A stretch of 64,000 nucleotides of DNA from assembly GCA_035235625.1 (NCBI GenBank), contig CP141145.1:3720001-3784000 (forward strand). Direction: 5' to 3'. The notes below the pieces were generated by a model that saw nothing but the letters and a program-made list of their open reading frames with translations, ran no database searches and was not told the origin of the DNA. This document shows, piece after piece, positions 6,531 to 52,948 of this stretch (its first letter is position 1; the number at the start of each line of letters is the position of its first letter). The translations under genes and the position numbers were made by a program. This stretch comes from Saururus chinensis. Taxonomy: Eukaryota; Streptophyta; Magnoliopsida; Piperales; Saururaceae.

Positions 6531-6545
6531 AATACCCCCAAACCT
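6531..6545 (-). other. Polypurine tract of the Athila/Tat-like element
   Basis: On the minus strand GGTTTGGGGGTATT lies immediately before the 3' LTR, where second-strand synthesis is primed. Confidence 0.7.
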
Positions 6546-10863: not shown

Positions 10864-11137
10864 ACAATTTTAAATGTAAAAAGGGGAATAACAAGCAAAA
10901 ACTAACTAAAAATAAATCAAAATAAAGAGAGAAAAGGATCTTGCAAACCGAAGAGAAGCGCTATGCTTGTCGATGTCCACTTGTGGCCACAAGTGTAGAG
11001 AGCACGATCTTCAACTCAGCCTACAAGATCAAATTAAAAGAAGGTAAGAAATTAAGAATTAACCTAAAAATTAAAGTAAACTGAATCTAAATTAGATAGA
11101 ATTATCCTAATACTAATTTAGTAACAAATCAACACCG

Positions 11138-11154
11138 TCCTCGGCAACGGCGCC
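11138..11154 (-). other. Primer binding site, tRNA-Asp type
   Basis: On the minus strand TGGCGCCGTTGCCGAGGA begins a few bases after the 5' LTR end. This is the classic Athila/Tat primer site complementary to tRNA-Asp, with one visible difference from TGGCGCCGTTGCCGGGGA. Confidence 0.88.
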
Positions 11155-11161
11155 AAAAACT

Positions 11162-12593
11162 TGATCGTTTATAATTAAACCATTTGCAAGTGTACAAGGT
11201 AATTGTATTAGGATGAGTATTTAAGGGTTGTCGAACCTCAGGGACGGATGGATTATCACTAAATCTAAAGAGAAATTTGTTGATTAAAAACTAAAAACAA
11301 CTTAAACTTAAATTAAGCAAAAGAAAGAAATCAACTAGTTTAAAAGCAAGAGATTAATTTGATGGAATTTACTTAGGAAATCGAATCCACTATAGAACCA
11401 TAACAATTCCTTAACTTTTAATCTAAATCTAGTGTGAATATGAACAAGTATTCTCAGCTACAAGCTAGAATTACTTTAGAAATAATCATTGATTAAATTC
11501 CATGGCATGAACTATCTTCGACAATAGCACGAATCATCTACACTAAACTAGCTATAGGCATGACCTGTCTTATCTTAGTATAACTCATCCAAGTCCTTAA
11601 TTATCTGAACATTAAAACTATTGTATGACCATCTCATCTAAATCACAGAAATTATAATTGATGTAAATATCAAAACCATATCAATTTGTCATCTACAAGA
11701 CAATAAATCAACATCGATTTGAATAAACATTAAAAGCTCTTTCATTAAAAAGGAAATCGATATCATACAATTGTCATCATTCACAACTGAGATCTAAATT
11801 AAAAAGAAAAGAAACTGAAATTTATCTATAGCTTCATCAACTCCTAAGTAAAAGAAAAGTCTAGCCTTCCATTGTAGAAGAAAGCACTTGAATCTCCATT
11901 GAAAGCTTTGAGTTCTCTTCCATCTTCTTCTTCCTTTTTCTCTTCATAAAATCTACTGGAATCCTCCAATTTTAAGCCAAATATGTCTTTTTATAGGCAT
12001 AAGTTCCGTAGGAAGAAGTTCAATATGAAAAGGATTGAAATTTGGGTCGAACAAGGAAACTGCGCGTTATGCCGTTCGAACGCCCTGCATGCCCGTTCGA
12101 ACGCTTATACTAAGTTTTTCTTCAAAATTACGTTATCCTGTTCTAATGCCCTGAATGCCCGTTCAAACGGCTACAGTGTTTCTGCAGTCTGGACAGTTTT
12201 TCTGGATAGTCCATATTCTGTTCATTAAGCTTTTCTTCATGTCCATATTAATTTCCAACTTGTTTATAACTCTGAAAAGTTGTCCAAATCACTTTTAAAC
12301 ATGTCAAGACTATTTTGAACTATTCAAAACATCGTCCAAGTACTTCAATAAGAGCACTTTACCTACAAAACATAAAATATCATCCTTTAGACATGTAGAA
12401 AGTAACTAAAATTCCAACTTGATTTAAATACATGTCTAAACTACTAATAACTACAAAATCATTAATAATTAAACTAAAATACTAATATCTATCTTAATCT
12501 AAATAAACCATAACTAACTCTTAATTAACCTAATCTATACTAGCAAATAAGGTAAAAATACATATAAAATAGATATATATTTCATACTTATCA
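11162..12593 (-). repeat. 5' LTR of the Athila/Tat-like element
   Basis: The partner LTR. It ends at the duplicated target GATAC (12594-12598). A minus-strand TATA box lies near 11990, and TTCGAA palindromes lie near 12070-12170. Confidence 0.93.
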
Positions 12594-13743
12594 GATACCC
12601 AACGGCCTACCCCCGTGCTCATGGGACAACGGAGGCCACTAAGGGAAGGAGTTTCCCCATGATGCTCCACCTTGTGCATGCCACTGGCCGATTATTTTTC
12701 TCAGCGGGCATCAAAATAGTGTACAAAACCACTACACTAAGTGGTGCGTATGAAATCAATTCACATCGATATATGTAGCAAAATGATCACATAATTCAAC
12801 CAAAAATCCATTCATCGATTAAACCAACGTCATATTCATATTTAAATCAAATACTTCAAGAGAAACTGACTCTGATGAGCAAAGCAGTTATTTAGAGTTT
12901 AAAACACCCTACCCTAACCTTGGGTATAAGATTCATAAATATAGAAGCTTCAGATGATAAAAATAACCCCCCACCATAGCGTTTAGCACGATCAATTTAG
13001 TAGAGAATGTCTTTTGAACAACTACAATTGGACTTGAAATGACCCAGAAATAGTATAAATAAGATATGGAGAAAACGAGAAGAAAGATAAGGTTTTCTCG
13101 GTCTTAGAGATGTCGGTTTAAGAAAGTAACCCTTCCACTGTGAAGAACACCCTTGATTTGTAGGAAACGTTTTTTGAACGGGTTAAAACGGACGTAGTAT
13201 GGCTTAGAAGTAGAGAAAACAAGAAGAAAGTGAGAAATTGGGGGTGAAAACCAATTTTCACCCCGTCCCCCTTAAATAGCCCGGACGGTGGTGCCGCGCT
13301 ACCAATTTTGGCAGCACCGCCAAAAAAGGCGGCACGAATGTGCCAGCGCATTTGTCACGCGTGCGCATTTTTTATTTTTTGTTTTTTTAACATTAAGATT
13401 CAAACCTTCGTATCTTTTTATCTCGATCTCCGATTTGCGCATTCTTAGTACCATTGGACTCATATTAACGAGCCCTAAGAAACCAAAACACTTATGAATA
13501 CATTAGTCCATACTTTACATGTAGGTCTCACTCGTAAGTTATTCTTTTCTAGGTCGTATCTTTTACTCCGGATCTCTTTTTCAAATGTTTTTCGACTCAT
13601 TACGATTGTTTCCTCGTGCTCTACCATAATCTTATAACATATTACCACATAAAAGATCTTTAACTAAAGAAAAATTATTAAAAACTCCAAAATCATATTT
13701 ATTAAAGACTAAAAATTTTACTGTGAATTTTAGAGTCATTACA

Positions 13744-14422: not shown

Positions 14423-14753
14423 TGTTGTGCACGTGCACTTGATTCATCACTTATCTTTATTTCAGTACATTAGACTATCACTTATGTTTATTTCAGTACA
14501 TTAGGCTAGTTTTCCTTATGTTAGTGGCCGATTGACATATGTATTTAGTTATGAACCTGTGATAGGCACGCTAGTGGACCACGGGATAGCCAGGCCTACT
14601 AGTGGCACGACTCCCAATGTTGGAGGGCATGACTCCCTCCTTGGTTCGGCATGCTATTGAATTCCAATTTACTCTTTTTGTTATTTTCTTACTTCTTCCC
14701 CTTTCCCTACGTAGAACTCATGTGTACCAATTGTGCCAACATTGGGCACATCA
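14423..14753 (+). repeat. 5' LTR of the Reina-like element
   Basis: It begins TGTTGTGCACGTGCAC and ends GGGCACATCA, and is homologous throughout to 32642-32990. An internal direct repeat, TTATTTCAGTACATTAG, occurs twice near 14458-14505. Confidence 0.92.
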
Positions 14754-14766
14754 TTGGTATCAAAGC
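14754..14766 (+). other. Primer binding site, initiator-Met type
   Basis: TTGGTATCAAAGC lies directly after the 5' LTR. It differs from the standard TGGTATCAGAGC by one base. Confidence 0.85.
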
Positions 14767-14782
14767 TCTATCGATCCCCAGC

Positions 14783-15590
14783 CATGGCCAGAGGCAAGCA
14801 GGTTGTTGCCACCCTAGAAATGCAGCCCATGAAGGAGACTGAAGTTTCAGCAGACAGCCCCTTCGCCGCTACCACGGCCGCTTCGGCTGCCACGGATGGT
14901 CCCACACTGGTGCAGCTCTTTGCCATGATGGAATTATTGGCTGTAGATGTTGCACATATAAAGGCAGCACAATCAGCGCCCACAGCGTCCATCCTCTCCG
15001 GATCCCAGGATGCAACTATGGAACTTAGGGACTCGTCTCAGGGACCCGACAGGCGCACCCCTGGTCCCTCAGCCACAACAGACAAGGAGACACGTCAGTC
15101 CCCCGTTCCCCTACTCGTTGGACCGGTTGACTTGCCTGCTAAAGGAGGACGCCAAGCCTGGGCTTCGCAATGCCCGCCAGGTGTTTGGGTGAATGCCCCT
15201 ATGATGCCGCCATTTGTTCTTGGTCTTCTAGCCATGGCATACAGGGAGGCACATCAGCCTCACGCCCCCCTATGCACTGGACAAGCTGCCTTTCCTGCTA
15301 AAGGGGGACGTCAAGCCTAGCCACCGCGATGCGCGCCAGGTGTTCAGATGAATGCCCCAATGATGTATCCCCCTAGGAACTTGCTTTAGGAGATGGATGA
15401 TGACTGGGACGAATACCCTGGCCCTCGCGGTGGTCCTCGAGGAGTGTTTGGCCTACCTATAGTTCCCACATTACAATGGAGAGACGACCCAGTGGAGTGG
15501 CGATACAAGGCTGAAAATTTTTTCGCATATCAAGGCACACAGTCAGAGGCTGAACAACTGTGCATCGCTGCATTCCATCTGGACGGGGAT
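14783..15590 (+). CDS. Gag, first part, of the Reina-like element
   Basis: It starts at MARGKQVVATLEMQ. A long low-complexity region rich in Ala, Pro and Ser follows, and then the Gag core motif with DPVEWRYKAENFF and EQLCIAAFHLDGD near 15490-15590. The coding is interrupted at 15590 by the nested Tekay-like element and resumes at 28643. This is a fossil, with breaks inside the segment. Confidence 0.8.
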
Positions 15591-16199
15591 TGTCACGCCC
15601 CGGCGATGCCCGACCCGAGCCAAACCCGGTCCAGGGGCCGGTCAAGCGCGCGGGGGCGACGAAGGAAGATTGAGAAACGATCTAGCGGAAGACTTAACCC
15701 TAACCACAGGCGATTAACAGAATTACGGAGTACACACAATCTTTTGAGCAAGAGTAAATAAAAAGGAAAGAAAGAGTGTTACTTATCACAAAGTAAACAA
15801 CAATTCTCAAACCCACAAGCTTAGTTTAAGTAAAGCCCACACCGGCTCAAAATAAGTCATAAGCATCACAACTGTAAAGTATGACATAAATCTAAAACAA
15901 GAACCCTACACAAAAGTTCTAAACATAAGCATGAAACAAAAGAAGGTAAGTCACACAACGATCTCCAAGATCACATCCAAGCCATTTCCGACCTTTCCTC
16001 AAAGAGGAGATCCTGTCCGTCTCTGTGTCGCACCACGCAGCCCCAAAACAAAACACAAGAAAGAGGGGTGAGTTTAACAAACTCAGCAATGGTTTTAATA
16101 TCACTACCAACATCGAAAATACGATAGCATAGTAATAAGATCATTTAGATCAAAGATTTACATGGTGCATCATTTTCTAATCACATATACATATCACCA

Positions 16200-16605
16200 A
16201 ACACTGCATCATAGTGCATAATCAACCTGCATGGATGTATCTCTATCATACATATTCCCACATGCATCATATCAAAATCAAACTGCATTGATGTATCTCT
16301 AACATACCTATTCCCACATACATTATATCGTAATCAACCTACATGGATGTATCTCTAACATACATATTCCCACATGCATCATATCATCACAACCTGCATG
16401 GATGTATCTCTAACATACATATTCCCACATGCATCATATCAAAATCAACCTGCATGAATGTATCTCTAACATACATATTTCCACATGCATTATATCATAA
16501 TCAACCTGCATGGATGTATCTCTAACATACATATTCCCACATGCATCATATCATCACAACCTGCATGGATGTATCTCTAACATACATATTCCCACATGCA
16601 TCAAC
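16200..16605. repeat. 56-bp tandem repeat, about seven units
   Basis: Units contain CCTGCATGGATGTATCTC, then TAACATACATATTCCCACAT and GCATCATATCAT. The partner LTR has only about three units at 25755-25920. The LTR length difference of 224 bp equals four 56 bp units. Confidence 0.88.
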
Positions 16606-16689
16606 ATTCTCATTCATCATGCATGTATACGTGTCACACACGCACACTAGTCTGACATGCAAGACCGTACCCATAGAGAATAAACCTGC

Positions 16690-17095
16690 TCTTCAAGGCC
16701 GGAGCCCTCGAGCAAATACTTATCAAATAGACATGCTCCTCAAGGCCAAAGCCTTTGAGCAAACACTTATCAAATAGACACTTATCAAATAGACATGCTC
16801 CTCAAGGCCAAAGCCTTCGAGCAACCCCTGCTTACCAAGACACGAAGTCTCAAGCAACTCCTGCTTACCAAGACACGAAGCCTCAAGCAACTCCTGCTCC
16901 TCAAGGCCAACGCGTTTGAGCAACTCTTACTCCTCAAAGCCAATGCCTTTGAGCAACTCCTGCTCCTCAAGGCCAATGCCTTCGAGCAACTCCTACTCTT
17001 CAAGGCCAACACCTTTGAGCAACGCCTACCCATCAAGTCTAAACTCCCGGGCAACCCTGCTTGTCAAGACTGAAGTCCCAAGCAACAACACCTAG
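16690..17095. repeat. 33-bp tandem repeat block
   Basis: The unit is close to CAACTCCTGCTCCTCAAGG followed by CCAATGCCTTTGAG. The unit length is a multiple of three, so it yields open frames on both strands that repeat an 11-residue pattern (LLLLKANAFEQ). These are by-products, not genes. The right LTR carries the same block at about 25985-26390. Confidence 0.85.
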
Positions 17096-19324
17096 CAAGC
17101 CAGTGCACTCAAGCAAAACAGTTGGATTCTCAGGGTCCAGTGAATCATACATAATTTAAATCCACAAGACAAGTACACAACACATCCCTACTTAACTCCA
17201 TTTAACTAAACTCAACCCGGGGAGTGCATTCGTTCCACACAGGAACTCAAATTAAAACATGTCCTTTCGGACCAATCAACTTACGATTAATCCACGACCG
17301 ATCAATCCGACACACAATTTCACCACATTGCATCCAATCGGTCAAATTCGATTAACCTCGATGAAGCCTCAATTGGAAATTCATTTTCATGATGCATGCA
17401 GCATGGTACATACATGGGCAAAGCATACATGAATCCTAATCCATGATAAGTGTTCTCATCAGCCCCTAATGCATTATTCATAATCACAATATCAAGCTTC
17501 AGCATCATCATTTAACCCGCACATGTGTGTGTGTGTAACTAGTAGAAGCATTTTATATAATGCATGTCAACATGCTTGAAATTAAACTCACTACCACACT
17601 ACACATGTGAATTTCCATCTAAACATGAATTCCAGCGGAAATCATAGAAGAAGAATCGTTTAAATCGTATCCCAATTCAAATCTCAACCACAAAGGCTAA
17701 TCACATATACAATCACCCATTTCATCATTTTGTCATGGCATTTACTAACATCCACACACAACTAACCACAATCTATCATGACAAATCAGTCCAATAATAG
17801 GTTGTAGTCCTACTGAAAATATGCTTAACCAAAGGGAATCAACCATTCATAATTTCAAGATAACAATTCCAACATCATGCCACAAAACATAAGTCATTCC
17901 ACAAATTTTTAAGCATATATCTCAATTCCATAACCTCAATAGTATGCCTTTCCCGTAGCATAACAGAGCTTAAAACACACCACATTTATATGAAATTGGC
18001 AAGCTAAAGTGGAATCATCAAAATAAACTTCATGCATTAGAAAACCGATCTGCTGTGTAGTCGTTCGAACGCCCTTCAGGCCGTTCAATCGGTTATGCAT
18101 AAAATTTTGAAACTTACAGTTCGGCCGTTCGAACGCCTAGCAGGCCGTTCGATCAGCTGAATTGGAAAACTTTCGTTTCGACAGTGTTGCCATTCGAATG
18201 CCCAGAAGGGCCATTCGAACGCCAACAAGGCAGAACAGTCCATCTTCTTCCTTTCGCAAATTCAAACCGAAACACCATTAATAACACTTCAAATCCACAT
18301 CTAACACCCTAATCATCATCAAAAGTCCTTCTTGACTTCCAGAACATCAAACCATATCATAATAATGCAAAGCCCTAAGAAATCGGGATTAAATAACTCT
18401 ATTTTCTAATCTTACCATTAACACACCAAATCAAGCAACTCATTTCGAAATAAGCCAAAAATGAAGAGTTTTACCATGGATAAACAGAGATTTTGAAGAC
18501 CCATTACCTCAGCACTTGATTAAGATGGGATTGAAGAGTCACCCTTCTTGAAATCCTTGAAAACACAATGAGTTTGAATTAAACTCTAATAGAAATCGAT
18601 TTACCCAAGAAATCCCTAATTAAATCTTAGATCTAGGGCTTGTTGGTAGTGAAAATCGAATTTTGAGTGTTAGGGCTTGTAGTAAAACACAAATCAGTAG
18701 CTTTTGATGCCCAAAAACGAATTGAATCAAGGGGGAAATGGTAGATTTGGAAGAAATTAAGAAAAAAGCCATGAATTAGTGCTTAATTAGAGTAAACTTA
18801 CCTTAATCGGCTTCTAATTCGTGCCTAAGTGGGGATTAGGCCAGCCCTCCCTCCTTAGCCTATTCCCAAAAATGGAAATGGCTCAGGTCTACCCTTTTAT
18901 AGTAAGGGTTGGGGTATGCATAGGTAAGTTTTGGGTTGTAAATAGGAAAAGTAGGCTAAAAATGGGTATTTCACAAATTTAAGCACTAATTAAGTCTAGA
19001 AAAATTCTAAAAATTTTTGTGTGACCTTAAGTAGATGTCTAGGTCTATTTGACCCAAAAATAAAATTTTCGACGGTGGGGCCCACTGGGGTCCCGCCAAA
19101 ACCCTAATTTTTGGGAAAATAGTAAAAATTCCGAAAAATCCCAAAAATTCACATTTGGTTTAAAATCACTTAAAACCACTAATATTGAAGTTGATTTTGG
19201 TTAAAACTATCACAAATACTATTTATTTTACGAAATCACCGAACACGATCAGAAAAGATGTTAATCTCTCGATAACCAATAATTAAAGAAAACCATAAAC
19301 CGGTTTAAGATTAGGGATCTTACA

Positions 19325-19340
19325 TCCTCCCCCACTTAGG
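19325..19340 (-). other. Polypurine tract of the Tekay-like element
   Basis: On the minus strand CCTAAGTGGGGGAGGA abuts the TGTAAGATCCC start of the 3' LTR, the standard arrangement in this clade. Confidence 0.88.
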
Positions 19341-19984
19341 AATTTTGGTCCTCCAAAATTTGCTAAAGGTCAATGCAGTTCTTCTTCCAACTCTACGCCG
19401 TTTGCAATTCCTCCCACGCTGCATGAGTACACAACTCAAGCCACAAATTGAAACGTCACTCTAAACTACGTAACTACCACTCCCGTCAGGAAAGGTTAGA
19501 ACCGGAACTAAAGTCAATCCCTTCTTCACCTCTTGTCCGAAATAAAATTGACAAGGCATCCAATCTCCTTAGTGGAATGAAATTATGACGAGTCGTTCGT
19601 CAACTCATTCCCAACTCCAACGCCATTAAATGGATTTCAAGAGGAGGTAGTTCAACACTCATCATCGAGATGCTTATAAGAAGACTACACACCCTCTATT
19701 AGTCCACTTCCTAGCCTTAGTGAAAGACACCGAAAAGTTTCCACTAGAGCACTTAACACCCTTGAAGATGAAAGGTTCAACATCGGGTAAAGTGAACACC
19801 GCTTTCTCTCCCGACAACCCACATGTGCATGATGCTATAAACATCACATCCATGTCGCAAATCATATCAAAAACGATCACAGACAAGAAAATCAAATTAA
19901 CATGCATCTCATTCAACATTCAAGCTCACGAGCGAAACGAGGAGAGATTAAAGAATGAGAATGATCAGCATTACGTAGTACCTT
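19341..19984 (-). other. Interior remnant between protease and polypurine tract (Tekay-like)
   Basis: Minus-strand matches to the post-protease region appear at about 19690-19910 (ILG-like region, then DVEPFIFKGVK). Below 19670 there is a short stretch resembling the far 3' end of pol. The polymerase and integrase that should lie between are absent, which indicates a large internal deletion. Confidence 0.6.
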
Positions 19985-21095
19985 AACATAGTGAGAGGCA
20001 ATGAGGGTCATACCTTCCACCACACCTGAGGAGTTAGCCGCCTCATGTGCCGACATAGCATACACTTTCCCATCGGCAACCGGCTTCTTCCCCTTAGCAT
20101 TCTGTTGCCCGGTGAATGTCCTAGCCTGGGACCCTTGGTTTTGTGCAACCGGTTGTTGCTTCGTTGCACCACCCTGAGCTCGTCGAGGGCATTGTTTCTT
20201 GGTGTGCCCCCTTTGCCCACAGAAATAACAAGCAAAGCCTGCACGGTCATTGTATGGGCCATGATTTGGTAAAACGAACTGCTGCCCCGGTGCATCTTCA
20301 TGAATCCTCTTGTAACACTCCCTTTTATAATGCCCATTTTTCCTGCATAAATAGCAAGTGATGTGAGCACGGTGACTAGTGTGGTCCAGCTGTGCATCAT
20401 GGGTGTGGTTCCTCCCTAGGTCATCACCCTGACGCTTATGGCTCCAACGGACATGGGTATCCTCGTGTCTCGACCCCTCGAGCTATTGCTCCTTCTTCCT
20501 CATATACTCCTCCGAGTTCCGCTCCACTACGATGGCGGTCTCGAGTACTTCTGCTAGGGTTTTGTGTCGGAATGGGACAACTTGGCCTTTGATGAAAGGC
20601 TTAAGACCGTCCTCAAACATATATGCTCGCTCATACTCATCGTTGAAGAAGCGAGGAGCAAAGTGCTCAAGCTCCACAAAATGGGTCTCATAAGCCAAGA
20701 CCGTCATAGAACCCTACTGCAGGCTGAGAAACTCCTTTTTTTCTCCTCTCGGACATGAAGAGTGAAGTACTTGTCATTAAAGACAGACAAGAACTCCTCC
20801 CAAGGAATGTCCACTCGGCCATGAAACCTCTGACACTCCATCGATAACCACCACCTCTGAGCCTCACCCTCGAACATGAAGACTGCAAGTCTAGTCTTCT
20901 CCTCATCCGAGCAACGTCGAGCACTAAAGATCTTCTTCATATGAAGCCTCCAATCATCCGCCTCAGAGGTATCCAATTCATCCTTGAAACTAGGGGGATT
21001 AAGCTTATTGAATCCCTCGAGTGAGAGAGACTCAGAGCCGCTACTACTCACATGCTTAGCCTGGAACACCTGTGTCAACCTTTCAATGGCGGTTA
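19985..21095 (-). CDS. Gag and start of protease of the Tekay-like element
   Basis: On the minus strand gag reads LNPPSFKDELDTSEADDWR and EAQRWWLSMECQRFH, with WEEFLSVFNDKYF at 20750-21000. This is the retrotransposon Gag core. A PVVPFRHKTLAEVLETAI-like stretch follows, then two zinc-knuckle-like segments in 20150-20360, and the start of the protease region near 20000-20060. The reading frame is broken in several places. The N-terminal end stops at 21095, where the nested LTR element begins. The gag leader continues on its far side at 24875. Confidence 0.8.
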
Positions 21096-21417
21096 TGATA
21101 TGCACGTTTTAGGGTGACCACTAGGGGGCGACCACTAGGGGCTAAGTATTAGGGTAACAAGGGTTTTAATATAATAAGAGTATTAGGGTAATTAGTAAAT
21201 TAGTATTTTGTTTTAATTATGTTAACAGGCCTTAGGCATCTATTAGAGAGCCCATTAGTTTGTTTATTTAAATGTAAGGGCTACGCCCTAAGTAAATTAA
21301 TGAATGATTAATTGTCTGTGCTTCTTCTATTTCTTCTATATTTCTCCCATTTGTGTCTGATGGCTGTGTCATCCACTCTCTCCTTTCACTCTCTCCTTTC
21401 CCGGTCTCCCTGCACCA
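21096..21417 (+). repeat. 5' LTR of the gene-capturing element
   Basis: It matches 24565-24874 over its whole length except for a ~12 bp duplication near its 3' end (ACTCTCTCCTTT repeated) and scattered substitutions. A TATTTAAATG promoter-like box lies near 21264-21273. Confidence 0.92.
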
Positions 21418-21435
21418 CTTTATCGGAGTTACGTT
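21418..21435 (+). other. Degenerate Met-type primer binding site
   Basis: CTTTATCGGAGTTACGTT starts directly after the LTR CA end and agrees with TGGTATCAGAGCCAGGTT at about 12 of 18 positions. The placement supports the LTR boundary. Confidence 0.55.
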
Positions 21436-21497
21436 CCCCAACCTTGGTTCCGATCTCAGTAACCGCGGACAGCTCGAAGGCGGATCCTGTAACAGCC

Positions 21498-21735
21498 ATG
21501 GAACTCAACCTCGATAAAATCTTGGCTGCATTGGAAGTCCTAAAGGCGATTATGGCGCACGCAGGAAACGGCGCGGCGACGGCACACACAGTGCCACTTC
21601 TACCGGGGTCGCCCCCTGCTGTCCTCGTGCACGAGTCACCAGATCCCCCACCGCAGTTACCCGCTGTCCAGCGAGGTGATGATCAGCCACCATTCGACGG
21701 CAGCGGCGGAGGACGGGGAGGCGTTGCAGCCTGAA
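21498..21735 (+). pseudogene. Residual gag start of the gene-capturing element
   Basis: It begins MELNLDKILAALEVLKAIM and continues into a Pro/Ala-rich stretch, resembling the variable N-terminus of chromovirus Gag ahead of the conserved core. The conserved core itself is absent, and the sequence then passes into captured host DNA. Assignment is by position and composition only. Confidence 0.45.
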
Positions 21736-21789
21736 CGTCCAAGCCTCCCGCCGCGCCACCATTAGACGGCAGCGGGTTATCTGACCTGC

Positions 21790-22140
21790 ATTGCGCGCAG
21801 CAGCGGCCACTCCCACACTCGCAGCCGGGGCCTCGAATCCTCCCTGGAGTCCCGCACCACGTCCGAGGGACTGGTCGGCCAGCTTTCCGCCAGCGAGGCC
21901 GCCGGCGTCATCCTTCAGATGATCCGCGAAGGTCGTATCCGCAGACGCGTTGTCATCCTGGCCGGTCAACCTGGTACCGGCAAGACCATCATCGCCATGG
22001 GGCTCGCCAAGCCCCTCGGCACAGAGACCCTCTTCGCCATCGATGGGAAGGCGGTGGAGGTCCAGATCGATGGCCCAGCCATTTCTGGCGTTGCGGCCAA
22101 GACAGGGAGGCCGCCCCTCGCTGCCGACACCGGCTCAAAG
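21790..22140 (+). pseudogene. RUVBL2-like fragment: Captured RuvB-like 2 (Reptin-type) AAA+ ATPase fragment
   Basis: One plus-strand frame reads [32 protein letters not shown] and [20 protein letters not shown]. The last holds an intact Walker A motif (GQPGTGKT), and the order matches the N-terminal part of eukaryotic RuvB-like 2. The frame then jumps from ETLFA to [11 protein letters not shown] and AAKTGR. About 50 residues that normally lie between (around SLEMSKTEALTQAFRK) are missing, as if an exon or segment had been dropped. Family knowledge: Pontin/Reptin hexamers work in INO80/SWR1 remodelling and box C/D snoRNP assembly. Walker B and the rest of the protein are absent, so no ATPase function is possible. 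GC content is higher than in the surrounding retroelement, in line with capture of a host coding sequence. Confidence 0.85.
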
Positions 22141-22660
22141 CAGGGAATTTCGTCGCATTCTATCGCTGTGGAAGAAGGGAATTGGTCCTGCGGCTTGCCC
22201 AAGCATCCGGCTGCGACGGAGGCAGCGGCCTGCTGGGTGTCTCCGGTGGACGCCGTGGAACGAGATCAGATTCGCCGGAAGCTGAGAACGGAAAACCAGA
22301 TCTTTCGGAAGATGGCCTGCGGATGCAAGATTTTCTTTCCTGTTGGGGTCTGTCAGCGTGCTTCGGAAGATTCGGGGCAGAGAGGCAGGTGGGTCTGGCT
22401 CTTAGTTGGAGGGCCCTCGTACCTTGGCAACCTTCCCTGCAGAACGGCCATTCCGTAATTTCTGTGACCCAAGATCTACGTCCTGCACCGTGCGAACCAC
22501 ATTTTGGGCTGGGCTGTGCAGCGTACCAGATTTTTCAGTGGTGGTTGTTAATCACGGGAGGGTCCCTAAGTTTTCTCCACTGCCAGCTCCTCTTTGCTAC
22601 CGCGAACAGCATCGGAGTTGAGTTCTGCATCACCGTGGAGCCAGTTGTTGCACTGGAGAG
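22141..22660 (+). other. Unassigned captured or filler sequence
   Basis: GC-rich DNA between the RuvB-like and PPR pieces. It is open in more than one plus frame, including the start of the long 22182-24398 frame. No protein family is recognised. It may be UTR or coding sequence of a further captured transcript. Confidence 0.5.
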
Positions 22661-24398
22661 CAGCTTGGATTTTTTTGTGGGTATACTCTGGACTGATGTC
22701 TATGACAAATCTGGAATGTTGGGTGATGCATGCCGGCTGTTTGATAGAATTCCTGAGCCAGATGTGGTTGCCATTTGCTTCCCACTCCCATTGTTGCGGT
22801 GGGAGCCCCAGCTGATCCAAGCCAAATCGCTGATGGCCTCTCTTCTCCTCTCTAAGCTCTCCCACTCCATGACTCTAGCTTCTTCCCAGTCCACGGCTCT
22901 GCATTCCACTCTTGTTAAGCCATCAAATGGTGCACACCTCCTATCCCGAAGATGGACGGTTGTTGCAAGAGCATTCAGCTCAAAACCTGCTGGAGGAGAG
23001 TTTATTGGGATTGACCTCGGTACCACCAATTCATGTGTTTCAGTGATGGAGGGAAAGACCCCTAACCTTATTGAGAATGCGGACGGTGCTAGAACTACGC
23101 CCTCTGTTGTTGTTTTCAATCAGAAAGGGGACCTTTTGGTGGGTATGCCTGCGAAGCGCCAAGCAGTAACTAATCCTATAATCACTTCGTTTGGCACCAA
23201 GCGTTTGATTGGACAAAGAATTGCTGATGCACAAACTCAAAAAGACATGCAAATGGTTCACTACCAAACTGTCAAAGTCACAAATGGGGATGCTTGGGTT
23301 GAAATGAATGGGCAGCAGTACTCTTCTAGTGAAATTGGTGCACATGTTCTTACCAAAATGAAGGAGACTGCAGCATCTTATTTTGGCAAATCTGTTTCGG
23401 AAGCTGTAATCACAGTTCTGTCCCATTTTAATGATGCACACAGACATGCGACAAAGGCTGTTGGACGGATGGCTGGACTTGCTGTGCTTCGCATAATCAA
23501 AGAGCCTCCTACAGCAGCTCTTTCCTATGGGATGAACATTAAGGAGGGTTTGAGAGCTGTTTCTAACTTGGGTGGTGGCACTTTTGCTTTTTCTATTCTT
23601 GAGCTCTCTAATGGCGTTTTTGAGGTTACAGCTATCCATGGGGATACCATCCTCGGTGGAGAGGACTTCGATAAGGCATTGGTTGCATATCTCGTGCAAG
23701 AGTTCCAGCGGATGGACACCATAGACCTTACTCAAGACAAGCTGACCCTCCAGAGGCTAAGCGCAGCAGCAGCGAAAGCAACGGTGGAGCTCTCATCAAC
23801 AATGCACACTGAGATAAATCTCCCTTTCATTACTGCTGATGCCACAGTGGTCAACCATTTCAACAGTACACTGACTCGCTCAAGGTTTGAGGCTTTAGTA
23901 AATGCTCTCAATTTTGCCCAGACTAATTTTGATCATGAGATGGCAAGGAATTATATTATGAAGGTTGTATGTGAGGCTGTTGTGTCTAAGGAGCCAGAGA
24001 TCAGGCAAGCAGCATTTGAGTGTCTTGTTTCAATTGCCTCCACTTATTATGCAAAGTTGGTGCTGTATATGCAAACTCTGTTTGAACTTACAGGCAATGC
24101 GGTGATGGGGGATGGAGAGCCAGTTGCTTTCCAGGCACTTGAATTTTGGGGTTCCATCTGTGATGAAGAACTTGCACTTCACGATCTTGATACTGGGGAT
24201 TCCAATGGGCCTTATTATGGAATCATAGACCAAGCTCTTCCCTTGTTGGTTCCTATGCTGCTTGAGTCATTGCTCACACCGGAGGAGGACCAGGATCAGG
24301 ATGATGCGGTCTGGATTTTGTCAAGGGCTGGTGGGACCTGTTTAGGACTTGTTGCAAGGGCTGGAGGCTCTCTGGACTTACCACTGCTTGGAGTTTGA
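22182..24398 (+). CDS. 738-codon chimeric ORF: PPR + mtHsp70 + importin beta
   Basis: One uninterrupted plus-strand frame covers about 2.2 kb. The first ~160 residues are unassigned. Residues about 165-205 match a PPR protein, about 218-575 match mitochondrial Hsp70 from its presequence through most of the ATPase domain, and about 576-730 match importin beta HEAT repeats. The two last joins keep the frame. No promoter other than the 5' LTR is visible. The ATG at 22182 is only the first in frame; the ATG at 22833 is the natural mtHsp70 start. Persistence of a frame this long suggests recent formation or chance preservation; it is not proof of a protein. It could also be read-through of captured exons never translated from this start. 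Confidence 0.75.
22661..22800 (+). pseudogene. Captured pentatricopeptide-repeat (PPR) fragment
   Basis: The stretch [19 protein letters not shown] followed by PEPDVV matches the plant PPR consensus (LVDMYSKCG.L.DA.RLFD.MPE.DVV). One repeat is covered. PPR proteins bind organelle RNA. This fragment is too short to identify the gene or function, and it is embedded in the longer chimeric frame. Confidence 0.7.
22833..23905 (+). pseudogene. mtHSP70-like fragment: Captured mitochondrial Hsp70 fragment (presequence and ATPase domain)
   Basis: The frame starts [19 protein letters not shown], a Ser/Leu/Arg-rich mitochondrial presequence. It passes through [20 protein letters not shown], the presequence/phosphate-1 junction typical of plant mtHsp70, and ends at [13 protein letters not shown]. 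It covers about 355 residues of a ~680-residue family with no introns. Known role: matrix import motor and folding chaperone, DnaK family. The phosphate-1 loop ([11 protein letters not shown]) is intact. Phosphate-2 reads [13 protein letters not shown] instead of the family's DLGGGTFDVS, and [12 protein letters not shown] replaces AYFNDAQRQATK, so catalysis would be impaired. The substrate-binding domain is missing. The absence of introns implies capture from spliced mRNA. Confidence 0.93.
23906..24370 (+). pseudogene. KPNB1-like fragment: Captured importin subunit beta-1 fragment
   Basis: It joins directly to the Hsp70 piece in the same frame. Diagnostic stretches are [35 protein letters not shown] and [13 protein letters not shown], then [15 protein letters not shown] and [14 protein letters not shown]. 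These match consecutive HEAT repeats in the N-terminal/middle part of plant importin beta-1, the nuclear import receptor. About 155 of ~870 residues are present, without introns. The start and end of the protein are missing, so it cannot act as an import receptor. The frame closes shortly after at 24398. Confidence 0.92.
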
Positions 24399-24564
24399 GT
24401 AGAATTTTTGAGATTTTACACTCTTCTGTAAGTGGGCCTTCTATTATAACTACAGAAATGGCTTCGCTGTTTCAGACTGGCTGCTCCAAGCGGAGTTGTG
24501 GTGGGCCCATGGGTGCGAGTTTAAGATCACCTCGAGGACGAGGTGATGCGGAAGCGGGGTGGAA
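24399..24564 (+). other. 3' tail and polypurine tract of the gene-capturing element
   Basis: A short unassigned segment is followed by a remnant of the carrier's own pol end (TCGAGGACGAGGTGATGCGG) and the purine tract GAAGCGGGGTGGAA abutting the 3' LTR at 24565. The same arrangement occurs at 32605-32641 in the Reina-like element. Confidence 0.7.
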
Positions 24565-24874
24565 TGATGTGCACGTTTTAGGGTGACCACTAGGGGGGCG
24601 ACCACTAGGGGCTAAGTATTAGGGTAACAAGGGTTTTAATATAATAAGAGTATTAGGGTAATTAGTTAATTAGTATTTTGTTTTAATTATGTTAACAGGC
24701 CTTAGGCATATGTTAGAGAGCTCATTAGCTTGCTTATTTAAATGTAAGGGTTACGCCCTAAGTGAATTAATGAATGATTAATTGTCTGTGCTTCTCCCAT
24801 TTCTTCTGTATTTCTCCCATTTCTGTCTGATGGTCATGCCATCCACTCTCTCCTTTCCCGGTCTCCCTGCACCA
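24565..24874 (+). repeat. 3' LTR of the gene-capturing element
   Basis: Homologous to 21096-21417 with the same TG start and CACCA end. Just beyond it, Tekay-like leader sequence resumes (CTTGTGGATAATCATCC). Confidence 0.92.
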
Positions 24875-25127
24875 CTCTATACTTGTGGATAATCATCCAC
24901 AACAGGTCAACACATCGTCCACCCTTGGGTCACGAGCACCGCGATGGTTATTAGCGCCTCCATGATTAGGACCAGCCATCTACACAACGACCAGACATTA
25001 ATCGTATAGCCAAATAACACGAAAGCACACAGCCAAACAAGCAGAAAACACACATACAAGCAAGAAAGACTTGTCACACAAACCCTATTTACTCTTGGAC
25101 AAAGATGTGCTCTGATACCAAAAATTT
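24875..25127 (-). other. Leader of the Tekay-like element with Met-type primer site
   Basis: On the minus strand TGGTATCAGAGC lies at 25109-25120, seven bases after the LTR end. It is the exact tRNA-iMet primer sequence. The rest is the untranslated leader up to the point where the gene-capturing element is inserted. Confidence 0.88.
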
Positions 25128-28100
25128 TGTCACGCCCTGGTGATGCCCGACCCGAGCCGAACCCGGTCCAGGGGCCGGTCAAGCGCACGGGGGCGACGAA
25201 GGAAGATTGAAAAACGATCTAGCGGAAGACTTAACCCTAACCACGGGCGATTAACAGAATTATGGAGCACGCACAATCCTTTGAGCAAGAGTAAATAAAA
25301 AGGAAAGAAAGAGTGTTGTTTATCACAAAGTAAACAACAATTCTCAAACCCACAAGCTTAGTTTAAGTAATGCCCACACCGGCTCAAAATAAGTCATAAG
25401 TATCACAACTGTAAAGTATGACATAAATCTAAAACAAGAACCCTACACAAAAGTTTTAAACATAAGCATGAAACAAAAGAAGGTAAGTCACATAACGATC
25501 TCCAAGATCACATCCAAGCCATCTCCGACCTTTCCTCAAAGAGGAGATCCTGTCCGTCTGCGTGTCGCACCACGCAACCCCAAAACAAAACACAAGAAAG
25601 AGGGGTGAGTTTAACAAACTCAGCAATGGTTTTAATATCACTATCAACATCGAAAATACGATAGCATAGTAATAAGATCATTCAGATAAAAGATTTACAT
25701 GGTGCATCATTTTCTGATCACATATACATATCACCTAACACTGCATCATAGTGCATAATCAACCTGCATGGATGTATCTCTATCATACATATTTTCACAT
25801 GCATTATATCATAATCAACCTGCATGGATGTATCTCTAACATACATATTCCCACATGCATCATATCATCACAACCTGCATGGATGTATCTCTAACATACA
25901 TATTCCCACATGCATCAACATTCTCATTCATCATGCATGTATAAGTGTCACACACGCACACTAGTCTGACATGCAAGACCGTACCTATAGAGAATAAACA
26001 TGCTCTTCAAGGCCGGAGCCCTCAAGCAAATACTTATCAAATAGACATGCTCCTCAAGGCCAAAGCCTTTGAGCAAACACTTATCAAATAGACACTTATC
26101 AAATAGACACTTATCAAATAACATGCTCTCAAGGCCAAAGCCTTCGAGCAATCCCTGCTTACTAAGACACGAAGTCTCAAGCAACTCCTGCTTACCAAGA
26201 CACGAATTCTCAAGCAACTCCTGCTCCTCAAGGCCAACGCCGTCGAGCAACTCCTACTCCTCAAAGCCAATGCCTTTGAGCAACTCCTACTCCTCATGGC
26301 CAACACCTTCGAGCAACTCCTGCCCATCAAGTCTAAACTCCCGGGCAACCCTGCTTGTCAAGAATAAAGTCCCAAGCAACAACACCTAGCAAGCCAGTGC
26401 ACTCAAGCAAAACAGTTGGATTCTCAGGGTCCAGCGAATCATACATAATTTAAATCCACAAGACAAGTACACAACTCATCCTTACTTAACTCCATTTAAC
26501 TAAACTCAACCCGGGGAGTGCATTCATTCCACACAGGAACTCAAATTAAAACATGTCCTTTCGGACCAATCAACTTACGATTAATCCACGACCGATCAAT
26601 CCGGCACACAATTTCACCACATTGTATCCAATCGGTCAAATTCGATTAACCTCGATGAAGCCTCAATTGGAAATTCATTTTCATGATGTATGCAGCATGG
26701 TACATACGTGGGCAAGGCATACATGAATCCTAATCCATGATAAGTGCTCTCATCAGCCCCTAATGCATCATTCATAATCACAATATGAAGCTTCAACATC
26801 ATCATTTAACCCCCACATGTGTGTGTGTGTAACTAGTAGAAGCATTTCATATAATGCATGTCAACATGTTTGAAATTAAACTCACTACCACACTACACAT
26901 GTGAATTTCCATCTAAACATGAATTCCAGCGGAAATCATAAAAGAAGAATCGTTGAAATCGTATCTCAATTCAAATCTCAACCACAAAGGCTAATCACAT
27001 ATACAATCCCCCATTTCATCATTGAGTCATGACATTTACTAACATCCACACACAACTAACCACAATCTATCATGACAAATCAGTCCAATAATAGGTTGTA
27101 GTCCTACTGAAAATATGTTTAACCAAAGGGAATCAACCATTCATAATTTCAAGATAATGATTCCAACATCATGCCACAAAACATAAGTCATTCCACAAAT
27201 TTCTAAGCATATATCTCAATTCCATAACCTCAATAGCATGCATTTCCCGTAGCATGACATAGCTTAAAACACACCACATTTATATGAAATTGGCAAGCTA
27301 AAGTGGAATCATCAAAATAAACATCATGCATTAGAAAACCAATCTGCGTGTAGCCGTTCGAATGCCCTTCAGGCCTTTCAATCGGTTAAACGTAAAATTA
27401 TGAAACTTATAGCTCGGTTGTTCGAACGCTTAGAAGGCCGTTCGATCGGCTAAACTGGAAACTTTCATTTCGACAGTGTTGCCGTTTGAACGCCCAGAAG
27501 GGCCGATTGAACGCCCAGAAGGGCCGTTCGAACGCCAACAAGGCGAAACAGTCCATCTTCTTCCTTTTGCAAATTCAAACCGAAACACCATTGATAACAC
27601 TTCAAATCCACATTTAACACCCTAATCATCATCAAAAGTCCTTCTTGACTTCCAGAACATCAAACCATATCATAATAATGCAAAGCCCTAAGAAATCGGG
27701 ATTAAATAACTCCATTTTCTAATCTTACCATTAACACACCAAATCAAGCAACTCATTTCGAAATAAGCCAAAAATGAAGAGTTTTACCATGGATAAATAG
27801 AGATTTTGAAGACCCATTACCTCAGCACTTGATTAAGATGGGATTGAAGAGTCACCCTTCTTGAAATCCTTGAAAACACAATGAGTTTGAATTAAACTCT
27901 AATAGAAATCGATTTACCCAAGAAATCCCTAATTAAATCTTAGATCTAGGGCTTGTTGGTAGTAAAAATTGAATTTTGAGTGTTAGGGCTTGTAGTAAAA
28001 CACAAATTAGTAGCTTTTGATGCCCAAACATGAATTGAATCAAGGGGGAAATGGTAGATTTGGAAGAAATTAAGAAGAAAGTCATGGATTAGTGCTTAAT

Positions 28101-28637
28101 TAGAGTAAGCTTACCTTAATCGGCTTCTAATTCGGGCCTAAGTGGGGATTAGGCCAGCCCTCCCTCCTTAGCCTATTCCCAAAAATGGAAATGGCTCAGG
28201 TCTGCCCTTTTATAGTAAGGGTTGGGGTATGCATAGGTAAGTTTTGGAGTGTAAATATGAAAAGTAGGCTAAAAATGGGTATTTCATAAATTTAAGCACT
28301 AATTAAGTCTATAAAAATTCTAAAAATTTTTGTGTGACTTTAAGTAGATGTCTAGGTCTATTTGACCCAAAAATAAAATTTTCGACGGTGGGGCCCACTG
28401 GGGTCCTGCCAAAACCCTCATTTTTGGGAAAATAGTAAAAATTCTGAAAAATCCCAAAAATTCACATTTGGTTTAAAATCACTTAAAACCACTAATATTG
28501 AAGTTGATTTTGGTTAAAACCATCACAAACATATTTATTTTTTCGAAATCGCCGAATAAGATGAGAAAATACGTTAATCTCACGATAACCAATAATTAAA
28601 GAAAACCATAAACCGGTTTAAGATCAGGGATCTTACA
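25128..28637 (-). repeat. 5' LTR of the Tekay-like element (3510 bp)
   Basis: Partner of 15591-19324. It carries about three 56 bp units at 25755-25920, the 33 bp block at 25985-26390, and TTCGAA-type palindromes at 27350-27545. A minus-strand TATAAAAG box lies near 28206-28216. It ends at the GGGAT duplication. Confidence 0.93.
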
Positions 28638-28642
28638 GGGAT

Positions 28643-31600
28643 GCTTCTGTATGGTTTCAGAGCTTTGAGAAGGAGGTCCGCTACCCCTCTTGGGCCATCT
28701 TCTATGATGAACTGTGTATTCAGTTTGGGTTGAATGAATTTCAGGACTTTAACAAGATGCTCTCCACCCTGTGTCAAACCACCGCTATCCGCACCTATTA
28801 CACGGAGTTTATGAAGGTGGCCAACCGCCTTCCTGACTGGCCGGTGGTTGCCTTGGTGGGCACCTTCAAGCGTGGCCTCAAGACCGAGATTTTGGAAGAG
28901 ATACGACATTTTCCTTGTGCTAACATGAGGGACATAGTGCGCCATGCTCGCATTGAAGAGGAGAAGGAAGCTAGGCAACACAGGGGCGGCGGCTTGGGCC
29001 TTTGCCTTGGTCTACTCTCAGCGCCAACCCCTTGGCCACGCCTACCAGTAGCTTGGTACTTGGCAGCCCCAGCAGGTCCTATTGTTCGTCGCCTCTTACC
29101 GGCTCAGATGGAGGAATGCCGTTCTAAGGGGCTATGTTTTCGCTGCGACGAGAAATTCGTCCCTGGGCACCGTTGTTTTGTCAAGGGCAGTCTTTTAGTG
29201 GAAGAGATCAACGAGGAGAGAGAGGTGGCGGACGGGTCTGATTCGTTTCACTATGATGACATGTTGCCGGAGATTTCTGTCCATGCCTTCTCAGGGGCAT
29301 TCACTCCACGCACAATGAGAGTACAGGGCTACCTCAAGCGACAACAAGTGGCTATTTTGATCGACAGTGGGTTTATCCACAACTTCATTAACGACAAAGT
29401 AGCCCAATGGCTAGGCTGCTTCGTGTTTGATTCGAAGCCCTTTGATGTGTTGATTGGCGATGGGAAGCACCTCCGGAGCTCAGGGGTCTGTGCCCAGGCA
29501 GCACTCTCCATTCAGGGACACACATTTGTTACAGATCTCTTTTTGCTACCTACAAAGGGGGTGGACATGGTGTTAGGGGTGCAATGGCTCCAAGAGCTCG
29601 GGGACGTGTTATGGAACTTTAAGGACATGGTGATGGATTTTGCAGTACGAGCTTAGCGGGTGTGACTCCAAGGGTCTCAACCAGGCACCCTCCTTTTTGC
29701 TCAACCGACGGGTTCATTATTTTGGTTTGCCTCTCAAGGGCTACTCCTTCAATAGTGGGCATCGGTGAACATCCTTTAGGATCAGTTGCCGCAGGATCTC
29801 CTTGATTTATTGATGGAGCATAGTGCGGTGTTTGCGAAACCGCAGGGTCTTCCTCCGGTGCGGTCTCACGATCACTTTATCGCGATTCTACCAGGGGCTT
29901 CCCCGGCCAATGTCTGACCATACCGCTACCCATACATTTAGAAGGCAAAAATAGAACATCTTGTTGCTGACATGCTTCACTCCGGTATCATTCGCTCGAC
30001 CACGAGCTCCTTCTCTTCCCCAGTGTTGCTAGTTAGCAAGAAGGATGGTACTCGGCATTTCTGTGTTGATTACCGGGCACTGAATGCTATCACAGTCAAG
30101 GACAAATACTCTATTCCAGTGGTTGAAGAGCTTCTCGATGAGCTGGCTGGCGCTACTGTCTTCAGCAAACTTGACCTCCAGTCGGCTTACTATCAGATCA
30201 GGGTGCAACCCATCGATGTGCACAAGACCACCTTCCGAACTCATGACGAACACTTCAAGTTCCTTGTTATGTTGTTCTATCTGACGAATGCCCCCTCCAC
30301 ATTTCAAAGCATCATGAATGATCTCTTCAAGCCGTTCCTCCGCCACTTCATCCTAGTTTTCTTCGACGATATCCTTGTCTGTATCAAGTCATGGGGGGAA
30401 CACTTGGAGCATCTCAGGCCTATCTTTGCTATTCTGAAAGATAATTCCTTATTCCTTAAACATTCGAAGTGTTCGTTTGGCAGTTCACAGGTGGAATATT
30501 TGGGCCATATTATCTCTCGTGATGGCGTCACCACTGACCCCTCAAAGGTGGCCGCCATGTTGTCTTGGCCGGATCCTACTTGCGTCAGGGCGCTTCGGGG
30601 CTTTCTCGGCCTGACTGGCTACTATCGGAGATTCATTAACTGCTATGGTGAGATTGCTCACCCTCTTACTCAGCTGTTGTAGAAGGGGGCTTTTAGATGG
30701 TCCGAGGCTGCCCAAGTGGCCTTTGACGAACTGAAGAGAGCTATGGTGACCGCCCCTATTTTGATCCTTCCTGATTTCAGCCGACCCTTTGTGGTGGAGA
30801 CCGATGCTTCTGATGCCGGCCTAGGAGCGGTACTACTTCAGGAGGAGCATCCCATTGCTTATTTCAGCAAATCTTTGGCTGACCGCTCCCTATCCCTATC
30901 CATATATGAGAAAGAGATGTTGGCCATCGTCCTCGCGGTCGACAAGTGGCATCCTTATTTGCTTGGCAGCCAGTTTCTCATTCGCACTGACCACCAACCA
31001 CTCAAGTATTTCCTCGAACAGCTGGTGTCCACTCCAACATAGCAGCGGTGGGTTAGCAAGCTTCTTGGCTATGATTGTGAGGTTGTGTACAAGAAAGGAT
31101 CCGACAACACCGTGGCTGACACCCTTTCTCGCCGTACCCCTCTAGGTTCATGTTTGGCTATTTCTGGTCCGGCTTGTCCATTCCTTGTTGAGTTGAAACA
31201 GGCGTACCAGGATGATTCCCTAATCTGCACCTTGATTGCATCCCTCCAGTCTGACCCAACGGCGCGGCTATTCTTTGCATGGAAGGATGGCCTTATCTTC
31301 TGGAAGGACCGCCTATGGGTCCCTGAGATTGCTGATCTTCGGTGGCGTATCATCTCCCACTTCCATGACTCTCCCCTGGCTAGTCATGAGGGTGCACTCT
31401 GCACTTATAAGTGGGTCAGTCAGAGCTTCCTGTGGTAGGGCATTCGCCAGGCTGTTACTGCATATGTGGCCGCTTGTGATGTCTATCAACAAGCTAAGTC
31501 CGCCACGGCATCTCCCGCGGGTTTCCTTCAGCCATTGCCCATTCTAGATAAAGTACGGGAGGATGTTTCTATGGACTTTGTGGAGTCCTTGCTGTTGGTA

Positions 31601-32620
31601 CATGGTAAGTCGGTGATTATGGTGGTGGTGGACCGGTTGTCCAAGTAGGCTTATTTTTGTGCTCTGGAACACCCCTTCACCACCAAGTCAGTGGCGGAAC
31701 TCTATGTTTGGGAGGTGGCCAAAATGCATGGTATGCCTCGCACTATTGTATCTGATCACGACCAGGTTTTCATCTCTCAGTTTTGGTAGGAGCTCTTCAC
31801 TTTACAGGGCACCTCTCTGCACATGAGCACCGCTTTTCACCCATAGACGGATGGTTAGACCAAGGTGGTGAATAGGTGTTTAGAGCAGTACCTGCGCTGT
31901 TTTACTATGTCTCATCCCCGTCGATGGTTTCAGCTTCTTCCGTGGGTGGAGTGGTCTTATAACACTGCTTGCCACACTCATGCTGGTTTCACTCCTTTTG
32001 AGGTGCTATATGGGAGACTGCCCCCGACAATGTTATTGTATGTTCCCCATCGATCGTCGGTGGCTGAGGTTGATTATATGCTCCAGACACAGGACGAGGT
32101 TCTTCGACAGCTTAAGGAGAACTTGTCTTCGGCTCAGAACAAGATGAAGCAGATCTATGATCATCATCACACTGATAGGGAGTTCGCGGTGGGTGACTTG
32201 GTTTATGTCTCTGTTCTCCCATAGCACCAGGTCTCCTTGTTTCAGCCCAAGTACGCCAAAACTCGCCCCCCATTTCCATGGGCCCTATGCTATCGAGGAG
32301 CGTATTGGTCCGGTCGCTTACTGCCTGGTTCTATCGCCGGGTTCGATGGTCCACCATATCTTTCATGTCTCCAGGCTGCGTTGTTGCATAGGTGACACGT
32401 CTTTGGCCACTAATATTCAACCACCTCCCTTGATGGGCCCAGTTGTTTCTTCCGACCTGGTTCCTGCAGCGATGCTCGATAAGTGTCGTGTTGGCCGCTC
32501 TGGTCGTATTATTACGAAGGTTTTGGTTTCGTGGCAAGGACAGTCACTTGAGGATGTACATGGCTGTCTGAGGATGAGTTTTTGTCTCGATACCCATCTT
32601 GGTCGCCTTGAGGACAAGGC
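28643..32620 (+). CDS. Gag (rest) and Pol of the Reina-like element
   Basis: This continues the frame cut at 15590. Gag has WFQSFEKEVRYPSWAIFYDE and a CFRCDEKFVPGHRC zinc knuckle near 29140-29185. Protease has AILIDSGFIHNFI near 29350-29390 and GVQWLQELG. Reverse transcriptase covers about 29970-30560, with DYRALNAITVKDKY and FFDDILV. RNase H is about 30710-31130, with VETDASDAGLGAVL and EKEMLAIVLAVDKW. Integrase is about 31200-32220, with VVVDRLSK and PFEVLYGRLPP. A chromodomain (KVLVSWQGQSLED) lies near 32510-32560. All catalytic domains are recognisable but the frame is broken roughly ten times, so this copy is inactive. The chromodomain places it among chromoviruses. Confidence 0.9.
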
Positions 32621-32641
32621 GTTTACGGAAGCGTGGTGGAG

Positions 32642-32990
32642 TGTTGTGCATGTGCACTTGATTCATCACTTATCTTTATTTCAATACATTAGACTATCAC
32701 TTATGTTTATTTCAGTACATTAGGCTAGTTTTCCTTATGTTAGTGGCCGATAGGCATATGTATTTAGTTATGAACTTGTGATAGGCACACTAGTGGACCG
32801 CGGGATAGCTAGGCCCACTAGTGGCACAATTCCCAATGTGGGAGGGTGAGACTCCCCATAAAGGGTCATCTCCCTCCTTGGTTCAGCATGCTATTGAATT
32901 CCAATTTACTCTTTTATTTATTTTCCTACTTCTTCCCCTTTCCCTGCGTAGAACTCCTATGTACCGATTGTGCCCACATCGGGCACATCA
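32642..32990 (+). repeat. 3' LTR of the Reina-like element
   Basis: Matches 14423-14753 with the same ends and carries an extra ~18 bp near 32856-32876. It is followed by the ATGGG target duplication. Confidence 0.92.
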
Positions 32991-43174: not shown

Positions 43175-43190
43175 TTCTTCCCCCCTTAAA

Positions 43191-43574
43191 TGAATTGCGT
43201 CCACGCAATTCGCCCAAACTTACTATTCGAAACACATCTAATTCAAAACAATTATCTAGTAAAATCCGATAATTAATCGGATAAGTAATCGCAAACATAG
43301 TGTAATAGATCATAATCAAATAAATCATATAAAAGGAATTCAATCTTAAAATTGAATAACACATTCGCAAACGTAATCTGATAATTTATGATCAGATGAA
43401 ATATTTTTGAAAGAAATCATACTATAAATATAGAATTGGATAAATCATCGTATTGAAATCAGATATGTCATTCAAAATTATATCATTCCTTTAAAATTCC
43501 ACGAATCGATCGTTCATCAAAAGATCTAATAAATCATTCATAAATGAAATCTGATACTTAATTCAAAATCGGAT
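43191..43574 (-). other. AT-rich interior of the LARD-like element, 3' end
   Basis: Non-coding, with repeated AATCNGATAAATCAT-like phrases. No feature beyond AT-rich composition. Confidence 0.6.
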
Positions 43575-44215: not shown

Positions 44216-44284
44216 TCAAATCAAATCCTGAATAAACATTTCTGATTAAATTAGATTTGTAATTGAAATTCATTTTAATATACT

Positions 44285-46275: not shown

Positions 46276-46287
46276 GCTCCGATACCA
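46276..46287 (-). other. Primer binding site of the LARD-like element
   Basis: On the minus strand TGGTATCGGAGC lies two bases after the 5' LTR end. It differs from the initiator-Met site TGGTATCAGAGC by one base. Confidence 0.85.
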
Positions 46288-46289
46288 TT

Positions 46290-52943: not shown

Positions 52944-52948
52944 ATATT

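Follow-up and report, generated by a model that had tools for sequence, protein, structure and literature searches.

Host gene capture by plant LTR retrotransposons

Long terminal repeat (LTR) retrotransposons of plants are known to carry pieces of host genes. The maize LTR element Bs1 holds pieces of three host genes, encoding a proton ATPase, a xylan endohydrolase and a beta-1,3-glucanase, and joins them in a chimeric gene according to a 2026 review, which also treats Veju and BARE elements as cases of abnormal template switching (PMC13317346). A survey of maize counted 425 intact LTR elements with gene fragments, amounting to at least 189 captures (PMC2774510), and 672 and 1343 captured genes were counted in rice and sorghum, respectively (PMC3726574). 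Genes transduced in this way usually lie in sense (PMC7264820). Under the conditions of the maize survey, fragments of two or more standard nuclear genes were found in no element (PMC2774510); these conditions evidently miss some cases, because Bs1, itself from maize, was not counted. Here we describe an LTR element, referred to as the mosaic element, in a 64,000-nt stretch of the Saururus chinensis genome (contig CP141145.1, positions 3,720,001 to 3,784,000), hereafter the window. It contains pieces of four unrelated host genes, namely RuvB-like 2, a PPR protein, mitochondrial Hsp70 and importin beta, and is likely to be a non-autonomous Ty3/gypsy derivative that gained its cargo through template switching of reverse transcriptase (RT) onto host mRNAs.

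The mosaic element resembles Bs1 in being an LTR element with unrelated host gene pieces, two LTRs, a polypurine region at the 3′ LTR and no polymerase found. It differs in its four other genes and in being known from DNA alone, and the comparison was made with the description of Bs1 in the review. Host fragments inside an LTR element are likewise common to the captures reported from maize, rice and sorghum (PMC2774510; PMC3726574), whereas four genes are present here against at most one standard nuclear gene per element in the maize survey (PMC2774510). No element with this gene set was described in the titles and abstracts found among the open-licence PMC literature. The locus is thus an unusually rich case of a process already known from Bs1.

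Structure and ends of the mosaic element

The coordinates of the features are listed in Table 1. An alignment of the two LTRs spans 315 sites and shows 15 transitions, 3 transversions and 2 indels, corresponding to a Kimura two-parameter (K2P) divergence of 0.060. The LTR alignment, the database matches to all four host genes and the lack of RT or protease families in the element open reading frames (ORFs) scanned (some short ORFs fell outside the Pfam scan) bear out an earlier note on this DNA, which had proposed an LTR element with four host gene pieces and no polymerase. The purine tract that it reported was also recovered as a polypurine region adjoining the 3′ LTR.

Table 1. Features of the mosaic element and of the two elements that enclose it (positions in the window).
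Feature	Position	Strand	Remarks
Element A, Ty3/gypsy	14423..32990	+	contains element B; flanked by ATGGG; LTR K2P 0.083
Element B, LTR element with interrupted gag	15591..28637	-	flanked by GGGAT; LTR K2P 0.044
Left target site duplication GGTTA (probable)	21091..21095	.	identical 5-mer at 24946
5′ LTR	21096..21423	+	part common to 3′ LTR; may extend to about 21444
Possible primer site TGGTTCCG (uncertain)	21445..21452	+	from sequence; not iMet
Gag-like start, 78 codons (MELNLDKILAALE...)	21498..21734	+	gag-like by position; ended by TGA at 21732
Direct repeat, 21686-21706 and 21755-21775	21686..21775	+	20/21 identical; at edge of first captured piece
Open frame of 887 codons, stop to stop	21735..24398	+	crosses interior
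RuvB-like 2 piece	21781..22119	+	frame 1; 9eq2_D residues 30-117 and 148-178; TIP49
Stretch without family match, about 0.5 kb	22120..22664	+	open in frame 0
PPR motif piece	22665..22772	+	frame 0; PDB match
Mitochondrial Hsp70 piece	22833..23909	+	frame 0; matched part 22992-23909
Importin beta piece	23901..24383	+	frame 0; 4xri_A 1.4e-30
Gypsy-type 3′ internal end, polypurine region	24527..24564	+	homologous to element A
3′ LTR	24565..24880	+	repeat alignment with 5′ LTR
Terminal tail of 65 bp, small palindrome	24881..24945	+	no counterpart after 5′ LTR
Right target site duplication GGTTA (probable)	24946..24950	.	sole GGTTA within 24875-25126

The right end of the element had been placed at 24874 and is probably about 70 bp further on, giving a span of 21096-24945 with a probable 5-bp target duplication, GGTTA. 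The 5′ LTR opens with TGATATGC immediately 3′ of one GGTTA. When the flanks are joined with a single GGTTA, the minus strand carries one open frame that starts at MEALITAIERLTQVFQAKHV (MEALITAIERL) and continues into the part of element B, the surrounding LTR element, that matches Retrotrans_gag. A join at 24881, where the LTR similarity ends, breaks the continuity between the MEALI start and gag, yet another Met still precedes the gag frame, as some Met did in 82 of 246 joins tried as a control. The expected probability of a chance GGTTA in the stretch searched is about 0.22. The tail between the LTR similarity and the second GGTTA contains the palindrome TTGTGGAT-AATC-ATCCACAA. A likeness of this tail to the 5′ leader was not accepted, as its score was reached by 41 of 500 shuffles.

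No family was matched by the gag-like start. The direct repeat at 21686 and 21755, lying at the entry into the RuvB-like 2 piece, may mark a slip there. A search of 20900-25200 against Rfam returned a single match, which was dismissed (20.2 bits; gathering score, 65), the tRNA scan of the window returned nothing, and an LTR 29-mer had no match in viral contigs. Seven neighbouring gag, pol and leader ORFs compared with the element interior gave no match at E 1 or better.

Captured host gene pieces

The four pieces follow one another in the order RuvB-like 2, PPR, mitochondrial Hsp70 and importin beta, with the unmatched stretch 22120-22664 between the first two. All four are in sense, in agreement with the reviewed trend (PMC7264820). 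The RuvB-like 2 piece was matched by TIP49 in Pfam (1.9e-23) and by PDB 9eq2_D in two stretches (1.5e-32), with a net loss of 36 residues internally. The stretch that follows it had no hit in Pfam, PDB or PHROG. The PPR piece is the weakest of the four: its match to 5iww_D reaches 1.9e-14 summed over repeated matches, the best single stretch has a value of 0.0028 (9kfx_A), and no Pfam family was found for it.

The Hsp70 piece corresponds to the N-terminal half of mitochondrial Hsp70 (Pfam, 6.5e-109; human mortalin, 1.9e-108), and the stretch after the in-frame ATG at 22833 looks like the presequence. Of the signatures GDAWV and YSPSQI described for mitochondrial Hsp70 (PMC5028893), the first is kept and the second is altered to YSSSEI. 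The Hsp70 and importin beta homologies overlap at the residues NAL, in frame and without a gap. Pattern matches to the importin beta piece in viral and genome contigs (8 and 49, respectively) and to the Hsp70 piece in genome contigs (10) included none that could be confirmed. Further copies of the captured pieces within the window were limited to weak tblastn matches (best E, 0.69), and an arrangement of the parental loci side by side within the window was rejected.

A nearly unbroken frame across the interior

The whole interior is crossed by a nearly unbroken reading frame, which is an addition to the earlier reading of this DNA. Measured from stop to stop, the window contains 12 ORFs of at least 180 aa, and the 887-codon frame exceeds all the others in length. 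Frame 0 contains a single stop (TGA at 21732) over 21418-24395, compared with 36 and 49 stops in frames 1 and 2 over 21418 to about 24560. The chimeric frame is open from the gag-like start through the cargo apart from this TGA. RuvB-like 2 is read outside its own frame, and so the 887-codon frame belongs to the mosaic as such.

Upstream of the Hsp70 ATG, the stretch 21735-22832 has no stop against 9.0 expected, which none of 2000 dinucleotide shuffles equalled. The leader and RuvB-like 2 parts taken singly are unremarkable (P 0.15 and 0.19, respectively). The interval 22131-22616 has no stop (P 0.0065 for this frame, 0.0175 for any frame), and the corresponding values for the PPR part are 0.0255 and 0.0745. 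From the Hsp70 ATG through importin beta, 521 codons contain no stop.

Nesting and relationship to element A

The mosaic element lies inside the gag of element B, which in turn lies inside the gag of element A; the ATGGG flanks of element A were read by eye. The LTR divergence of the inner element (18/315) is nominally greater than that of element B (147/3477), contrary to the nesting order, the inner sample being small. Element A encodes gag, protease, RT and an integrase-end domain (SH3_Tf2-1). On the minus strand, the interior of element B gave gag, zinc-knuckle and protease matches, and 33-nt tandem repeats lie within its LTRs, which are about 3.5-3.7 kb long (15591-19324 and 25127-28637).

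The 3′ internal end, the polypurine region and the LTR start are common to element A and the mosaic element. The alignment over 24527-24576 has 40 identical columns out of 51 and a score of 45, against a shuffle maximum of 27, and none of 1000 shuffles was as good. In both elements, a reading frame starts with the 9-nt CAGCCATGG soon after the primer region, a likeness for which no control was run. The two differ in LTR body, primer site and interior. From these likenesses, the mosaic element is read as a non-autonomous relative of the Ty3/gypsy lineage of element A.

Origin of the cargo

The gain of the cargo is best explained by RT switching templates onto mRNAs, with only indirect support for the loss of introns. 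Capture from mRNA is favoured because the LTRs and the gypsy 3′ end are in place, all four pieces are in sense, the Hsp70-importin beta junction is in frame with overlapping homologies, and the Hsp70 piece is uninterrupted over its 306 matched codons. Mitochondrial Hsp70 genes have five introns in poplar (PMC4373061) and two in moss, and the proteins are near 680 aa long (661-684). If five introns were placed at random, the probability that all would miss the matched codons is about 0.05; the plant sources for Hsp70 and importin provide counts of introns or exons or a figure legend, not intron positions, and random placement is an assumption of the test.

The element would have kept the ends needed in cis, namely the LTRs, the leader with its gag-like start and the 3′ polypurine region, and would have been reverse transcribed inside a particle supplied in trans. 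RT may then have jumped among co-packaged host mRNAs, replacing gag-pol with their copies. The order of switching would be from importin beta to mitochondrial Hsp70, the PPR mRNA, the RNA of 22120-22664, RuvB-like 2 and finally the leader, within one round or spread over several. Should Hsp70 begin with the ATG at 22833, RT would have copied that mRNA almost to its 5′ end before jumping, as expected of a run-off jump.

Several observations weigh against this origin or against details of it. With two introns, as in moss, the chance of missing the matched codons rises to 0.30, and the intron argument uses the counts of poplar and moss relatives. The RuvB-like 2, PPR and importin beta pieces might each be one exon. 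The 65-bp tail does not fit a normal retrotransposition product, and the GGTTA duplication would be accidental with a chance of about 0.07 (0.22 multiplied by one third for the frame). The LTR bodies of element A and the mosaic element are unlike, the best local alignment covering 31 columns with a score of 21 (no shuffle control). The primer site is weak: the best match to initiator methionine tRNA (tRNA-iMet) within 21380-21520 is 7/12, as opposed to 11/12 in element A. A candidate is present at 21445-21452, which we take, with uncertainty, to be tRNA-Glu-like. The primer site of the earlier note is doubtful, and its proposal of template switching onto spliced mRNAs is supported indirectly by the sense orientation and by the uninterrupted Hsp70 codons set against the poplar introns, the moss introns weakening the point.

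Decay, probable age of capture and possible selection

In the Hsp70 piece, both aspartates of the ATPase motif DLGGGTFD, which have a catalytic role, are lost. Human mortalin and nine bacterial DnaKs agree at 154 positions, of which 35 are changed in the captured piece. In the same leave-one-out test, mortalin differed at 15 of 169 positions, E. coli at 12 of 166, and eight alphaproteobacterial sequences at 2-4 of 156-158. Per-lineage LTR rates predict 7-9 new changes at invariant positions since insertion, in addition to the differences of the parent itself, and at least 35 changes would be reached with P 0.005-0.02 even if the parent differed at 15. The missense load is therefore probably in part older than the insertion, suggesting that the capture predates the present copy and that the chimera existed as at least one earlier copy, from which the present one would descend.

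A load of that size predicts 2.5-5.7 stops between the Hsp70 ATG and the end of importin beta (521 codons), against none seen (P 0.0035-0.08, depending on the assumed parent differences). This deficit hints at selection for an open frame. Such selection could act if the fused protein were used, as in a nascent gene resembling Bs1, or if a long frame were needed for another reason, such as escape from nonsense-mediated decay; it is compatible with cargo gain by template switching. The 887 codons open over joined pieces and the stop-free stretch ahead of Hsp70 are in its favour, and so are the matched Hsp70 and importin beta parts, which contain no frame break, although LTR or element B rates predict 2.3-8.4 indels of any length over 2661 nt since insertion. 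The damaged Hsp70 motif and invariant positions, the stop that ends the gag-like start, the reading of RuvB-like 2 out of frame and the ordinary openness of the leader and RuvB-like 2 parts are contrary to it. Moreover, post-insertion change alone leaves an open frame of 887 codons with P 0.045-0.16. We regard selection on the frame as possible but doubtful. A more speculative extension, which we consider quite unlikely, is that a plant family derived from Ty3/gypsy habitually swaps its interior for strings of host mRNAs, and that copies are kept only if they carry one open frame, selection acting on the frame and not on protein function.

Alternative origins

The pieces could instead have been taken up at the DNA level, through repair, as filler DNA, or one after another as insertions into a pre-existing LTR element. 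Three of the four are short and each is possibly a single exon, and the internal repeat at 21686 and 21755 and the 65-bp tail might reflect changes made at the level of DNA. The consistent sense orientation, the 306 Hsp70 codons that would have to miss all five introns known from poplar and the in-frame junction with overlapping homologies argue against this origin, which we judge unlikely.

Pack-MULE and Helitron elements bear many host gene fragments in plants (PMC13317346), but a gene-carrying DNA transposon, or gene debris brought by chance between two LTR-like repeats, is highly improbable given the direct LTRs and the gypsy 3′ end. No inverted repeats of at least 20 nt (12-nt seed) were found in 20500-25500, a 20-nt match of the tail palindrome appearing only under a laxer search; a Pack-MULE origin was rejected for the lack of long inverted terminal repeats in this interval, and a Helitron origin for the presence of LTRs.

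Other repeats in the window

Another probable LTR element occupies 5101-12600; its 1.4-kb repeats share 97.8% identity, and the minus strand carries a gag-protease ORF of 669 codons (8290-10299). Related blocks lie near 40.9-43.2, 46.3-48.7 and 53.3-55.3 kb (40911-55340), and the first two contain arrays of 20-nt repeats. At 60620-60981, six copies of a unit of roughly 60 nt (TGATGACTAATTTGATGTGGGACCCATGTGGG...) follow one another in tandem.

Significance

LTR elements that have each captured several genes are rare in the literature found, which offers Bs1 with three genes and, under the conditions of the maize survey, no such case among its 425 elements, Bs1 evidently not being counted there (PMC13317346; PMC2774510). 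The judgement of the earlier note that four sources are unusual is accordingly a fair one. The mosaic element is a second and larger case, and its recognisable ends, dated nest and nearly unbroken frame make it a concrete locus for testing. It bears on how mRNAs may be strung together by RT template switching and on whether a frame may be favoured before protein function, and hence on how new chimeric genes begin.

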